Positions 20 to 31,564 of a stretch of 39,029 bases of DNA are shown piece after piece. The stretch is taken from contig JAKJED010000006.1 in assembly GCA_022705575.1 (NCBI GenBank), positions 1 to 39,029 on the forward strand. The letters run 5' to 3'. Position 1 is the first letter of the stretch. Every line of letters begins with the position of its first letter. This stretch comes from Patescibacteria group bacterium (GTDB taxonomy: Bacteria > Patescibacteriota > Minisyncoccia > RBG-13-40-8-A). The translations under genes and the position numbers were made by a program. The notes beneath the pieces are model-generated. The model saw nothing but the letters and a program-made list of their open reading frames with translations. It did no database searches and was not told where the DNA came from.

Positions 20-712
20 CTATTCTAATACTAATTCTCTCATGCTACCTATTTCCATTTCTTTCAGCCACTTATTTATGCTTTGTTTATATTTTTCTTC
101 CCCGCCAAATATATCTAATAATAATTTCCTATCTGTTACTGAAGGAAAATTTTTGATATTCGAATAATCCATATGACTAGACCACCTATATTGATTTAAA
201 AAATTTATTGCCTTGTTATAATTATTTAATTTTCTCTCTCGCCATTCTGGAAATTCAAGATCCAATGGATTAAGATGAATATAATATGGAAGATTTAAGA
301 AGTGATTCGATTTGCTTACTAAAATTGCCTTATAGCGACTCTCAAAAAGAGTGCCCTTGCGTTTATGTTTTTGATTAAAATATTTCGCATAAGCCATATT
401 CAGTTTCTTCATAAATTTCGGAATCCCGTTTTCTGTTGAAGGACTCAATAATAAATGATAATGATTGGGCATTAGACAAAAAGCGTGAATATTCGCCAAT
501 AACTTTCTTAGTTCTCGTTTAATATGTGGACTTGCGATGTCCACATATTTATTCTGACTTTCAAATTTTTCAAGATTATAATGAGTCGTATAAACTACTT
601 TCTGATTATTAAGAACAAATAAATTATGAATAAACCTAAAATAATCTCCTTTATCAAGAAATATTTTCCGCTTGTCTACTCCTCTACTTAGTACATGATA
701 AATTTCACTCAT
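20..712 (-). CDS. REP-associated (IS200-like, Y1/HUH) tyrosine transposase
   Basis: Single-strand DNA transposase/nickase of the Y1 family (TnpA_REP type). The HUH motif is visible as MPNHYHLLL (His84 and His86) and the catalytic Tyr is expected in YIHLNP (about residue 143). FESRYKA is the usual conserved stretch between them. At 230 aa it has a normal length. I start at the Met of MSEIYHVLSRG rather than three codons upstream, because the second copy near 30 kb begins MAEIYHIL. The C-terminus is very similar to that copy (PSVTDRKLLLDIFGGEEKY shared). Residues about 55-64 are encoded by a perfect hairpin that recurs upstream of the gene. The 3' end is close to the window edge, so a left flanking hairpin cannot be seen. 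It appears intact. Confidence 0.9.
   Translation of the reverse strand: MSEIYHVLSRGVDKRKIFLDKGDYFRFIHNLFVLNNQKVVYTTHYNLEKFESQNKYVDIASPHIKRELRKLLANIHAFCLMPNHYHLLLSPSTENGIPKFMKKLNMAYAKYFNQKHKRKGTLFESRYKAILVSKSNHFLNLPYYIHLNPLDLEFPEWRERKLNNYNKAINFLNQYRWSSHMDYSNIKNFPSVTDRKLLLDIFGGEEKYKQSINKWLKEMEIGSMRELVLE
521..549. repeat. Hairpin inside the transposase coding sequence
   Basis: Perfect 11-bp inverted repeat (arms 521-531 and 539-549, core GTGGAC/GTCCAC) with a 7-nt loop TTGCGAT. It is translated in frame as roughly YVDIASPHI within the transposase, just before the HUH strand. The 19-nt core occurs again in inverted orientation at 745-763, between this gene and the upstream glycosyltransferase. 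Confidence 0.85.
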
Positions 713-744
713 ATTGTACATATTGTAAATTGTTAACTAAATTG

Positions 745-763
745 GTGGACATCGCAAGTCCAC
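745..763. repeat. Flanking REP-like hairpin of the first transposase
   Basis: GTGGAC-ATCGCAA-GTCCAC hairpin (6-bp stem, 7-nt loop), the exact reverse complement of the 19-nt core inside the transposase gene. It lies about 30 bp upstream of the transposase start and 3 bp past the stop codon of the glycosyltransferase, so it probably marks one end of the mobile unit. Confidence 0.8.
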
Positions 764-766
764 ATA

Positions 767-1876
767 TTATAATTTATTAAATTCTTTCCAATATTTATCA
801 ATAAAATCTTTTATCTTTTGTTTAAAGTTTTCTTTATCAAATTTTAGAGCGTGCTGATAAATGATTTTGGAATTAAATTTAGATGCATCAAAACTCTTAA
901 CCGCCTCCACTAATGACTCAACCGTCTGCTCCTCAAAAAACATGCCAGTTTTACCCCCTATAACACTTTCTAACGCACCTCCGCCCTTATAAGCTATAAC
1001 CGGCCTCCCGCAAGCCATTGCCTCTAAAGCGACAATACCAAAGTCTTCCTCTTGAGGGAAAATTAACGCCTGACATTCTTGATAATATTTTTTAAGTTCT
1101 TCGTTGTTTTTTTCTCCCAAAAATTCAATATTCCAATTCGCCATTTTTTTAAGTTTTTTCATTTCTGGACCACTGCCGATAATTTTTAGCGGCAATTCTA
1201 ATTTGTTGAATGCCTCAATCGCCATATCAAATCTTTTGTATGGTAAAAGTCGACCAACCATTAAGAAGTAGGGTTTTTCGTTTTCAACAAATTCAACCAC
1301 TCCAAAATTTTTAATATTTACAGGAGGATAAATTACTTCCGCTTCTTGTTTATAATATTTTTTTATTCTTTGCGCTACAAATTGAGAATTACAAATAAAC
1401 TTATCAACCCGATACGCCGCTTCTCTATCCCATAATCTCAAATAATTCATAAAAATTGGTACAAAAAATTTCGCAAATTTTTTCATACTAAATTCACGAA
1501 TATATTTATGACTATCGTCCCAAGCATATCGAATCGGCGTATGACAATAACAAATATGCAACGTATTCGGACGCGTAATTACTCCTTTACCGAAAGCTGC
1601 TGAATCGGAAAGTACTAAATCATAATCAGATAAATCTAATTTTTCAACGGCTAACGGCATTAAAGGCGGAAATAATCTATGATGTTTTTTAATAAATGGT
1701 ATTTTTTGCAAAAAAGAAGTTTTAATTTTTTTATTCGAAAAAAATTTATCAACTATTTTTTTATCATAAAGAATAGTGTAAATTGGCGCATTCGGAAAAA
1801 TCTCCAAAAACGCTTCCAACACTTTTTCCGCTCCTCCATACTGATTTAAATAATCGTGTACCAATGCTACGCGCAT
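767..1876 (-). CDS. Glycosyltransferase family 4 (GT-B, mannosyltransferase-like)
   Basis: Retaining GT-B glycosyltransferase, cytoplasmic or at the inner membrane face, probably adding a sugar to a lipid-linked surface polysaccharide. The N-terminus MRVALVHDYLNQYGGAEKVL is the typical acceptor-domain start (GGAE). The donor half has GRLLPYKRFDMAIEAF and the E-x7-E signature in EDFGIVALEAMACG followed by RPVIAYKGGG. I choose the Met at 1876 (369 aa) rather than an upstream in-frame codon that would overlap the previous gene; the stop of the upstream sugar transferase is 4 bp before it, so the two form an operon. No clear Shine-Dalgarno. The substrate cannot be told from sequence. Confidence 0.85.
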   Translation of the reverse strand: MRVALVHDYLNQYGGAEKVLEAFLEIFPNAPIYTILYDKKIVDKFFSNKKIKTSFLQKIPFIKKHHRLFPPLMPLAVEKLDLSDYDLVLSDSAAFGKGVITRPNTLHICYCHTPIRYAWDDSHKYIREFSMKKFAKFFVPIFMNYLRLWDREAAYRVDKFICNSQFVAQRIKKYYKQEAEVIYPPVNIKNFGVVEFVENEKPYFLMVGRLLPYKRFDMAIEAFNKLELPLKIIGSGPEMKKLKKMANWNIEFLGEKNNEELKKYYQECQALIFPQEEDFGIVALEAMACGRPVIAYKGGGALESVIGGKTGMFFEEQTVESLVEAVKSFDASKFNSKIIYQHALKFDKENFKQKIKDFIDKYWKEFNKL

Positions 1877-4284: not shown

Positions 4285-5977
4285 TTTTAAAATCAATAAT
4301 TTTTAATTGTAATTCTTTGGTGCCGTTCCATTCATTCGAAAGCATTTCAAAAACAATATTGATTTTATCCCCTAACTCTATTTTATCACAAGAATCAACC
4401 AGATTAAAACCGATTGCATTAATTTTTTTAACACTATCGCCCGTTTCTTTTTCCAGCAATAATTTTAAATGATTTTCTTTCGAACCAACATTTCTCATGC
4501 CAATAATTTTTAAATCTTTTAATAAAAATAATGGCATAGAATTTTTTTCTCCGAACGGTTCAAATTTGGCTATTTCATCAAATGTTTTCCAATTTAAATC
4601 ATCAATATCTATTTCTGCATTAATGTCTAAAAATTCGACCATATCTTCTTTTTTAAGTTTTCGCTCCGCAAATTTTTCTAACGCATTTTTTACTTTTTCT
4701 AAATTGCCTATATCTACTCTGAATGCTGCGGCAAACGGATGCCCCCCATATTCTTCCAACAAATTTTTACAATTATTAAGCGCATCAATAATATTAAATC
4801 CGGCAATTCCACCCCTGGCAGAACAAACCGCATGATTTTTGGAAATTTGACAAACAAAAGCTGGTTTCCAAAATTCATCCCGTAATCTTTGAGCAACCAG
4901 TCCGACAATTCCTGATGTCCATGTTTCATCTCCCTCAAAAACTATTTTATTTCTACAATTATTTTTTGCTTTTTTTCGCGCTTCGTTCATTATTCTTTCC
5001 ATTTGTCTTTGCCTCTCTTGATTACGATTTTCTAATTTTTGCGCCAATTCTTCGGCCTCGGACTTGTCTTTTGTTAATAATAACCTGAAAGCAACTGTGC
5101 CATGGTCAATGCGCGAAGCAGCATTAATTCTTGGTCCCAACATAAAACCAACCATATGTGTTGTTGGTTTGCCGATTATACGCGCTTTTTCCATTAAAAC
5201 ATTAAGTCCTAATCTTTTTGTTTGAGAAAGAACGATCAAACCATATTTTACCAAAGTTCTGTTTTCTCCAAGTAATTTCATCGAATCTGTTACAGTTGAA
5301 ATTGCTACTAAATCTAAAAGCCACTTTTCCCAAGACACAGGAAATCCCTGAATAATACGCACCGCTTGTAATAATTTAAACGCCACTCCTGCTCCGGACA
5401 ATTCTTTAAACGGATATTTGCATTTTTTTTGTTTAGGATTAATAATTGCATATGCCTTAGGAAGATTTTTAAGCACCTGATGATGATCAATAATAATTAC
5501 ATCTATTCTTAATTTATTTGCTAATTTTACTTCTTCGACATCAGTAATTCCGCAATCAACAGTCAAAATAAGTTTTATGCCCTGTTGTGCGATTTGTTCG
5601 ACTGCTTTCAAATTCAAACCATATCCTTCAGTATTCCTATCGGGAATATAAACTTCTGGTTTAATGCCATATACCGCTAATATTTCATAAAGAATAATTC
5701 CTCCACAAATCCCGTCTGCGTCATAATCGGCAAAAATAGCGACTTTTTCATTATTTTTTGATGCTTTTTCAATTCTTTTTATCGTTTTTTTCACGTCTTT
5801 CAACAAAAATGGATTATGTAAATCTTGTTCATAATCAGGACTAAAAAATTCATCAATCACTTTTTGGGTCGTAAGTTTTCTATCCCAAAGCAATTGAAGT
5901 GTTAATTTTGAAAATTCCGGAAATTTTTCTAAAAATTTTTCCGGTGCTTTTTTGTTTATTTTCCAAACTTTTTTCAC
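4277..5977 (-). CDS. recJ: Single-stranded-DNA-specific exonuclease RecJ
   Basis: 5'-3' single-strand DNA exonuclease for recombination and mismatch or base-excision repair. DHH-superfamily motifs are clear: motif I FADYDADG (residues 82-89), motif II around VDCGI (140-144), motif III IDHH (163-166). The DHHA1 domain carries GGHPFAAAFRV (about 410-420) and an OB-like C-terminal part follows. At 566 aa it matches the bacterial RecJ core. It is 24 bp downstream of pgk on the same strand and probably co-transcribed with tpiA-pgk. It ends in TAG inside the 32-bp repeat. Confidence 0.95.
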   Translation of the reverse strand: MKKVWKINKKAPEKFLEKFPEFSKLTLQLLWDRKLTTQKVIDEFFSPDYEQDLHNPFLLKDVKKTIKRIEKASKNNEKVAIFADYDADGICGGIILYEILAVYGIKPEVYIPDRNTEGYGLNLKAVEQIAQQGIKLILTVDCGITDVEEVKLANKLRIDVIIIDHHQVLKNLPKAYAIINPKQKKCKYPFKELSGAGVAFKLLQAVRIIQGFPVSWEKWLLDLVAISTVTDSMKLLGENRTLVKYGLIVLSQTKRLGLNVLMEKARIIGKPTTHMVGFMLGPRINAASRIDHGTVAFRLLLTKDKSEAEELAQKLENRNQERQRQMERIMNEARKKAKNNCRNKIVFEGDETWTSGIVGLVAQRLRDEFWKPAFVCQISKNHAVCSARGGIAGFNIIDALNNCKNLLEEYGGHPFAAAFRVDIGNLEKVKNALEKFAERKLKKEDMVEFLDINAEIDIDDLNWKTFDEIAKFEPFGEKNSMPLFLLKDLKIIGMRNVGSKENHLKLLLEKETGDSVKKINAIGFNLVDSCDKIELGDKINIVFEMLSNEWNGTKELQLKIIDFKKV

Positions 5978-29479: not shown

Positions 29480-29510
29480 AAATATTTGGTCCTTGAAGGA
29501 CCAAATATTT
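29480..29510. repeat. Flanking REP-like hairpin of the second transposase, 3' side
   Basis: Perfect 31-nt palindrome around a central G: AAATATTTGGTCCTT-G-AAGGACC and on. It abuts the transposase stop codon. The same hairpin, inverted, is at 30218-30246, and its core is inside the gene at 30017-30029. Confidence 0.85.
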
Positions 29511-30197
29511 TTATTCTAAAATCAACTCTCTTATATCGCCTACTTCCATCTCTTTTAGCCATTTATTTATGCTCTGTTCGTATTTCTCTTCTCCACCGAA
29601 TATATCTAATAATAATTTTCTATCCGTAACTGACGGAAAATTCTTTTTACCACAATAATCTAAATGACTAGACCATCTATAATTATTCAAATACTCTATT
29701 GCGTTATTATAATTTTTTAACTTTCTTTCTCTCCATTCTGGAAATTTAATATCCAATGGATTTAAATGAACATAATACGGAAGATTAAGAAAATGATTAG
29801 ACTTGCTAATCAAAATTGATCTATAACGACCCTCAAAAATAGTTCCTTTACGATTATATTTTTTATTATAATATCGAACATAACCAGCGCCGAGTTTTTG
29901 CATAAATTTTATAATTCCTCCTTCTTTCATTTCACTTATTAGTAAATGATAATGGTTTGGCATCAAACAAAACGCATGAATATTAACTAATAATTTTCTC
30001 GGCTTTTAAAATTTTGGTCCTTCAAGGACGTAAGATTGATTTTTAATTTTTTGATTAAAATAATACGATAACGTATTAACAAGGCCTTCATTATTAAATT
30101 CAAATAAATCATGAATAAATCTAAAATAATCTTTATCATCTAAAAATATTTTTCTTTTATCCGTAGATCTATTCAAAATATGATAAATTTCTGCCAT
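29511..30197 (-). pseudogene. REP-associated tyrosine transposase interrupted by one in-frame stop
   Basis: Second Y1/HUH transposase, about 70% alike the first copy by eye. The reading frame is continuous from MAEIYHILNRSTDKRK (30197) to the end, except for one TAA at 30006-30008. The stop comes just after the internal hairpin (SYVLEGPKF-stop-KPRKLL), before HUH MPNHYHLLI and YVHLNP. Without readthrough the first product is 63 aa and lacks the active site; a restart at the TTG at 29966 would miss part of the fold. It may be a recent pseudogene or a sequencing error. It sits between the two halves of the ComEC system. Confidence 0.85.
30017..30029. repeat. Hairpin core inside the second transposase
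   Basis: GTCCTTCAAGGAC, the core of the flanking 31-nt palindrome, in frame in the coding sequence (peptide VLEG) at the position equivalent to the hairpin in the first transposase. Confidence 0.75.
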
Positions 30198-30208
30198 ATA
30201 TTATAATT

Positions 30209-31564
30209 CTAACTCATAATATTTGGTCCTTCAAGGACCAAATATTTATTTCTATTTTGATAACGACTATATAGGCCAATAATTCCAACCAATAAAATAT
30301 AATATCCAATTGCCCACAACCAATGCACGTTAGAAATTTGTTTTGACGCCCAAGGGATTTTGGCAAACCAATCAATAATACGCAAAACATAAGTTGTACC
30401 AAGGTATGCAGGCCACAATAAAATTTTTCCAATCCAAATAGAAATCATTGCTCCCCCAATAAAAATTATGCCGATAATTGTCAATAAGGTTATAAATGGA
30501 ACAATTAAAACATTAACAATTGGCGAAATAAAAGAAATTCTTCCAAAATTATAAATTAAAACCCCCAAAACCGCTATTTGCGCGGAAATTGTAGTGGTAA
30601 TAATCTGCAAAAAATTATTAATTTGCTCTTTTTTAAGAATCTTCTCTAAAATTCTGTCAAAAATCGGCTTGATATAAATTAATCCCAAAACCGCCAAAAA
30701 TGACAATTGAAATCCGATATCATATCTTAATAACAACGGATTAAATATAAGCATTATTGCGCCGGCAAAAACCATAATTCTGGTAATATTGCCAAGTCGT
30801 CCAATTTTTTTCGCGTAGAGCAGAATTATGCCCATAATACCGGCGCGCACTGCTGAAGCAGGCGCGCCGACCATGAAAATAAACGCAATAATCAGCATTA
30901 CCGTAATCCAAAATGCCTGCTTACGCCAAAATCCCAATCCAATTAAAAATATCATCACAATATTTGAAATGATTACAATATTCATTCCAGAAATCGCGGC
31001 AATATGACTAGTACCAGTAATACTTAAATTATTTTTAATTTCCTCGGAAAATATCTGTTTATTGCCTAAAATTATTCCCTCTAAAATTGATGCTTCGGGA
31101 AACGGCATAATTGTTTCAATTTTATCTGTAATTTTATTTTTAAATTTTAAAATAGCAGAAAATATTTTATTGCCTTGATTTTCATCTATTAGTTCAATTT
31201 TTGGATAATACATTACATAATAAATTTTATCTTTGGCTAAATATTGTTTGTAATTAAAATCTTCAAAAACAATTGGAAATTGTAATTTACCTTCAATCTT
31301 TAAAACATCTCCATAATTATATTTCGGATAATTTGGCGCAGTAATCAAAATTTTACCAGTATCGGTGTTTATCGTTATCTGCATACTGCTACTTTTAATA
31401 ATCGGTTCTTTAATAATTTTACCAAAAAGCTCCATATTCTTTTCAGAAAGAGGAGCTTGCCCCGCCATAGACAGGGTTCTTTTTTCTAATATTTTTGGTG
31501 AAACAAAAAATACCGTGATTATAAAAATCAAACAAATTATCAAAAATATGTTTGAAGTTTTCAT
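30209..31564 (-). CDS. comEC: ComEC/Rec2 membrane competence protein (channel part)
   Basis: DNA-uptake channel in the cytoplasmic membrane. 451 aa with an N-terminal membrane anchor, an OB-like extracellular domain (about 35-125) and the Competence domain with many hydrophobic helices. Motif GTSHIAAISGMNIVII and the GAPASAVRAGIMGII segment are diagnostic. The MBL domain is a separate ORF (28379-29233). The last residues KYLVLEGPNIMS are encoded by the flanking transposon hairpin, so the native C-terminus was probably replaced. TATAAT 6 bp before ATG suggests a leaderless message. Confidence 0.9.
   Translation of the reverse strand: MKTSNIFLIICLIFIITVFFVSPKILEKRTLSMAGQAPLSEKNMELFGKIIKEPIIKSSSMQITINTDTGKILITAPNYPKYNYGDVLKIEGKLQFPIVFEDFNYKQYLAKDKIYYVMYYPKIELIDENQGNKIFSAILKFKNKITDKIETIMPFPEASILEGIILGNKQIFSEEIKNNLSITGTSHIAAISGMNIVIISNIVMIFLIGLGFWRKQAFWITVMLIIAFIFMVGAPASAVRAGIMGIILLYAKKIGRLGNITRIMVFAGAIMLIFNPLLLRYDIGFQLSFLAVLGLIYIKPIFDRILEKILKKEQINNFLQIITTTISAQIAVLGVLIYNFGRISFISPIVNVLIVPFITLLTIIGIIFIGGAMISIWIGKILLWPAYLGTTYVLRIIDWFAKIPWASKQISNVHWLWAIGYYILLVGIIGLYSRYQNRNKYLVLEGPNIMS
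30218..30246. repeat. Flanking REP-like hairpin of the second transposase, 5' side
   Basis: Perfect 29-nt palindrome, core GGTCCTTCAAGGACC, inverted relative to 29480-29510. It overlaps the 3' end of comEC and is translated there as roughly KYLVLEGPN. Confidence 0.85.

Follow-up and report, generated by a model that had tools for sequence, protein, structure and literature searches.

The gene at the start of this window (the whole analysed stretch of 39,029 nucleotides) raises the question of why a transposase should carry, within its own coding sequence, the hairpin that also stands in its flank. The gene (20..721, minus strand), here called copy 1, encodes a 233-aa Y1 (HUH, single tyrosine) transposase with the motifs MPNHYH, LFES and YYIHLNP, and its product matches the Pfam family Y1_Tnp in a profile search (E-value 8e-12). 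It contains an internal hairpin (520..551, core 526-544) and is preceded, about 20 nt before the ATG, by an upstream hairpin in its 5' flank (738..769, core 745-763) that is inverted relative to the internal one; both are assigned to the minus strand. An earlier note on this DNA had described the two cores as exact reverse complements of 19 nt, the inner one lying within an 11-bp stem and being translated in frame ahead of the HUH strand, and all of this held. The 19-mer GTGGACTTGCGATGTCCAC occurs at 526-544 on the plus strand and at 745-763 on the minus strand with 0 mismatches, and the 32-nt inverted pair 520-551/738-769 is complementary at 30 of 32 nt (94%). With its 11-bp stem, the internal hairpin folds far better than shuffled sequences (z of -6.9 and -6.4 on the two strands), and its in-frame translation, YVDIASPHI, falls in the loop before the HUH strand, 33 nt ahead of the HUH-strand codons. 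The upstream hairpin has a 6-bp stem and a z of about -3 against shuffles; the hairpin loop is asymmetric. The downstream flank of copy 1 is unreadable because the contig begins 19 nt past the stop codon.

The window gene is a RAYT/TnpAREP-like Y1 transposase. Its AlphaFold model (pLDDT 88.9) has as its best PDB match 4er8, the E. coli TnpAREP with its REP hairpin (E-value 4.7e-4, probability 1.00). The NCBIfam model REP_Tyr_transpos recognizes the protein with an E-value of 5e-12 but a score of 45.9 bits against a cut-off of 80. Among 60 homologues, residues N86, H87, H89, Y147 and N151 are invariant and P152 is nearly so, and the HuH and Y---NP tyrosine motifs of the TnpAREP/RAYT group (TnpAY1 class 2) are both present (MPNHYH, YYIHLNP). 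As in that group, the flanking hairpins are also found elsewhere in the genome, although the dispersed copies are few. The GT[AG]G foot of canonical REPs is absent: this motif or its complement occurs in 7 of 74 hairpin 29-mers, compared with 24 in shuffled sequences. The transposases of IS200/IS605 (subclass 1.1) share the HUH Y1 chemistry and hairpin ends but have a Y---Q motif where the window protein has YIHLNP, and the copies in the window's genome are divergent rather than near-identical. E. coli rayT (subclass 2.2, PDB 4er8) resembles the present family in fold and in its flanking repeated hairpins. No internal copy was found in it, the best CDS/flank match score being 9, although an 84-nt REP stretch is common to its two flanks.

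The same genome encodes two further Y1 transposases. Copy 2 (29511..30197, minus strand) shares 74% identity with copy 1 across 179 retained columns, and the tree places the two as strongly supported sisters. Its internal hairpin TACGTCCTTGAAGGACCAA (30014..30032, minus strand) occupies the same slot as in copy 1 with a different sequence. The hairpin TTGGTCCTTGAAGGACCAA is found both upstream (30223..30241, minus strand) and, inverted, downstream (29486..29504, plus strand), and the internal version differs from it by two changes at the left foot. Between copies 1 and 2, 10 of 21 core positions differ, yet each core matches its own flank. Other hairpins of the family (L083, L023) share the left foot AATCTTACG of the copy 2 internal hairpin, directly next to which stands the new core; in one by-eye reading of the sequence, this junction looks like overwriting. 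Copy 2 may be broken, since an in-frame TAA (30006-30008) follows just past its internal hairpin. The third gene, more distant and located on contig 44, has the hairpin TACGGAGGACNGTCCTCCGTA in exact copies upstream, inside and downstream. Each of the three Y1 genes in this genome thus has an internal hairpin that equals those in its own flanks, and the three sequences differ. Contig 39 of the same genome additionally contains, at 5183-5287 (L097), a 35-aa fragment that matches the transposase C-terminus only.

Homologues of the window gene were sought more widely. We took 80 homologous loci from public genomes, and a phylum survey detected relatives in 124 of 379 genomes; in all, 146 distinct homologous genes were analysed, two tandem-gene artefacts having been removed before matches were counted. 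A palindromic CDS segment matching the gene's own flanks was identified in 84 of the 146, as opposed to 2 of 581 mismatched CDS/flank pairs. The match score between a CDS and its own flank reached at least 18 in 74% of 77 homologues and in 1 of 228 mismatched pairs. In a blind test, palindromes were sought in the coding sequences without use of the flanks (arm score of at least nine), and a match was defined as 15/19 or better; the CDS palindromes of 53 of 65 genes matched their own flanks, whereas the control with the flanks of other genes gave 9 of 194. Most of the unmatched palindromes in this test lie at odd places and a few are in the slot, for example in L121, L082 and L081, the last of which had no upstream flank for comparison. 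The mismatched-pair and blind controls rule out chance as the cause of the match between internal and flanking hairpins. The earlier note would have abandoned its idea had the internal segments of most homologues been unrelated to their flanks, an outcome that the 84 matching genes do not bear out.

The stronger expectation, that the segment before MPNHYH always equals the gene's own flanking hairpin, survived in part. It describes most homologues of the close clade (internal hairpin in 54 of 77 members), with the hairpin located either there or in another loop. It does not extend to 37 genes in which the upstream and downstream hairpins match and an internal copy was not detected; in 62 of the 146 homologues, no palindromic CDS match to the gene's own flanks was detected. 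Because those 37 genes keep flanking hairpins without an internal copy, the latter is not obligatory; it is either dispensable or bound to particular clades.

Where an internal hairpin is present, it occupies one of a few places. The slot before the HUH strand (S1) holds 59 of the 84, a slot between the tyrosine helix and the YRWSS motif (S2) holds 13, a C-terminal slot 8, and the remaining 4 are elsewhere; counted against the catalytic motifs, 2 of the 84 lie between HuH and Y and 13 after Y. In the copy 1 model, S1 is a lower-confidence loop (pLDDT 62-71) leading from the first long helix to the HUH strand. Outside the gene, the median distance from the end of the upstream hairpin to the start codon is 20 nt, and that from the stop codon to the beginning of the downstream hairpin is 7 nt. 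Both are present in 55 of the 66 genes that have an internal hairpin and readable flanks, and the relative orientations of the hairpins are mixed. The codon phase of the internal hairpin varies between slots and also within S1, and the resulting peptides are therefore unrelated. Since several loops are used, in different codon phases and with no conservation of the peptide, the constraint acts on the nucleic acid and not on the peptide. In one homologue, L102, a single internal slot before the HUH strand contains two adjoining hairpin copies, GGAAGCTCAGCTTCC and GGAAGCTGAGCTTCC.

The internal copies are as well preserved as the flanking ones. In the 55 genes with all three copies, stem pairing is 0.93 for the internal, 0.92 for the upstream and 0.93 for the downstream hairpin; odd-one-out positions number 13, 30 and 26, respectively, in a comparison slightly biased toward the internal copy, which served as the query for locating the flank copies. 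Stem positions are paired in about 0.9 of copies even though the letters vary, compared with 0.3-0.5 at most positions when arms are dealt across copies. For genes whose proteins share more than 60% identity, the mean difference in the internal core is 7.6 of 21 nt, and 93% of the differing core positions are matched in both genes' own flanks, a figure that is circular on its own because the genes were selected for having a match. The blind test, which removes this circularity only partly, and the sister pair of the window are stronger evidence than this co-update figure. The loop before HUH has a median length of 36 aa both with and without the hairpin, and because it is no longer with the hairpin than without, its sequence seems to have been replaced in place; a simple extra insertion was set aside on the same grounds. 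A decaying scar was set aside in view of the intact stems and of the co-update with the flanks. The earlier suggestion that the internal copy is a scar of self-insertion is therefore disfavoured: the copy has not decayed, it turns over together with the flanks, and it has not lengthened the loop. The other two suggestions of the earlier note, a self-tag and a cis-regulatory cleavage site, are candidate readings. Because the inside and outside copies change together, the internal hairpin has the appearance of a recognition site under maintenance rather than of an accident or an old scar.

The explanation that we prefer, with a probability of roughly 0.58, is that a cognate hairpin occupies three sites per transcription unit and is kept matched at these sites by concerted evolution, probably via the transposase. 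One site lies about 20 nt before the start codon, one in the codons of a protein loop (most often the loop that precedes the HUH strand) and one about 7 nt past the stop codon, and the three copies stay near-identical while their sequence turns over fast among relatives. The transposase would bind the hairpins in single-stranded DNA, for instance that of the lagging strand; recognition of its own hairpin in this form is a reasonable inference because the TnpAREP fold has been solved with a REP hairpin (4er8) and the protein retains its catalytic motifs. Cutting and rejoining by the enzyme, or conversion among hairpins, might then copy one hairpin onto another, so that a change in one would spread to the others and the internal site would be renewed in place with the reading frame kept. 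On rare occasions, the hairpin may be copied into a tolerated loop of another gene. Point mutation combined with selection could give the same concerted pattern, in which case copying driven by the transposase would not be needed. A putative dedicated role of the internal site (autoregulation, self-limitation or binding of the own copy) fits its enrichment in the transposase gene.

Such a role is the core of the rival that survives best, which we regard as a tentative possibility: the internal hairpin may be a selected cis-regulatory site where the transposase binds the transcript or gene that encodes it, or which it cuts in single-stranded DNA, thereby limiting its own synthesis or being tethered to its own copy. 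Its incidence in the transposase gene is very high (54/77 in the close clade), as opposed to inspected dispersed copies, which lie mostly outside genes (3/23 inside); internal copies are no less intact than flanking ones; all three hairpins hug the ORF, probably within one mRNA; and the paralogues in the window's genome each come with a hairpin of their own. However, many genes keep the flanking hairpins and lack the internal copy, and the variable position in the gene suits a specific translational mechanism poorly. A related proposal, which we hold to be conceivable though rather improbable, is that the in-gene hairpin is an address tag by which the protein recognizes its own DNA or mRNA and so restricts its action, or its shutting down of an element, to its own copy; tag and flanks would then co-evolve, leading to mutually exclusive identities of the elements within a genome.

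The count of genome hairpins of the same type, proposed in the earlier note, was made by a pattern search of five genomes and found that dispersed copies are few, roughly 0 to 20 in each genome. In the complete Wolfebacteria genome, the three transposase sites account for every occurrence of the hairpin except one match with 3 mismatches. The Omnitrophota genome has 23 matches; none of the 12 inspected dispersed ones lies in a recognizable gene, and among the inspected matches the sole hit to a recognizable gene is that to the transposase's own. Such genomes are in general mostly coding. Across all of those searched, 3 of 23 inspected dispersed copies are inside genes. Two of these are in the window's genome, where both dispersed copies of the contig-44 hairpin are in frame in essential genes. 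One, in isoleucyl-tRNA synthetase (ileS; contig 18: 25868-25888; L189 1501-1521), is translated as YGGQSSVHL in a loop of the same length as in the nearest relatives. The other, near the N-terminus of SecA (contig 7: 28137-28157; L188 1501-1521), is translated as NYGGQSSVIL, and sequence comparison suggests that this region is about five residues longer than in Thermotoga SecA. In the Nealsonbacteria genome, one of the two dispersed copies of the hairpin of transposase L057 is in frame in murD (NIRERFSYV; L213 1501-1523).

Copies of this kind speak for a second rival, namely that REP-like hairpins enter any permissive loop in frame, the transposase gene included, and have no further meaning. 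We consider this improbable. Besides the in-frame copies in secA, ileS and murD, it is favoured by the location of S1 in a low-confidence loop (pLDDT 62-71) and by the precedent of subclass 2.4, in which internal REPs were read as tolerated insertions by Quentin et al. 2018 (PMC6006769). Against it, incidence in the transposase gene is far above that in other genes, loops with a hairpin are not longer than those without, and the internal copies are not decaying and keep up with the changing flanks. In-frame palindromes are also known from Rickettsia palindromic elements and REPs, short palindromes that occur inside housekeeping genes (Di Nocera et al. 2013, PMC3733652). The hairpins in secA, ileS and murD are similar to these, but the present palindrome is linked to one particular transposase next to it and also occurs within the gene of that transposase. 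A third rival, that the hairpin-encoded peptide is itself the functional part, forming a loop that confers specificity for the very hairpin from which it is translated, gains something from the commonest slot being just ahead of the catalytic HUH strand and from the peptide changing with the hairpin, but it is very improbable and was set aside, as the peptides from different slots and codon phases are unrelated (for example, SIEVRLQY in S1 and YRGSTSI in S2), many members have no internal hairpin, and E. coli rayT has no internal copy.

The earlier note knew of no such hairpin within a coding sequence, and in this it has to be corrected. In Quentin et al. 2018 (PMC6006769), in-frame REPs within tnpAREP genes were reported for another subclass, 2.4, as unique to it, generally located between HuH and Y, and the subclass was described as abundant in Cyanobacteria and Bacteroidetes. 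The genes of subclass 2.4 (Bertels group 4) as presented there and those of the present family are alike in being hairpin-flanked Y1 class 2 genes with in-frame hairpins in their own CDS (84 of 146 homologues here) and in variable loops. They differ in the main slot, which is before HuH in the present family, in the missing GT[AG]G foot, in the hosts, which here are mostly the tiny, uncultured Patescibacteria, and in the motifs. Instead of the NH[IFV]H, WQ and YIxNNP of subclass 2.4, the close clade has NH[YFIV]H, F[EQ] and YIHLNP or YIHTNP. These correspond to the motifs of subclass 2.1 (NHVH/NH[YF]H, W[EQ]/FQ, YIELNP/Y[IV]HLNP), to which the family can be assigned by motif only; TnpAY1 subclass 2.1, or TIRYT, is also similar in length according to Table 1 of that report (PMC6006769). 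In contrast to subclass 2.1, near whose genes the same paper found no REP-like hairpins, most genes of the present family are flanked by hairpins. A literature search confined to openly available journal papers found no published description for Patescibacteria.

Compared with the subclass 2.4 report, the identity of the internal hairpin with the gene's own flanks and its concerted turnover were additionally tested here in the present family. The results speak against internal hairpins being confined to a single subclass and no more than tolerated, and the same palindromes are shown to occur in frame within essential genes. From the gene itself one can read more than 80 naturally occurring combinations of a single-strand DNA transposase and its hairpin. 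These combinations make it possible to test how RAYT proteins co-evolve with the hairpins that they recognize, and they offer potentially orthogonal enzyme/hairpin pairs.

Two further observations concern individual homologues. L014 and L020 are sisters, of which L020 has an intact internal hairpin; the coding sequence of L014 contains a weak internal likeness, CATCAGGTGAAGGACATAT, that matches its own flank at 16/19 positions and is possibly a decayed copy. Locus L086 contains two closely similar Y1 transposase genes in tandem.
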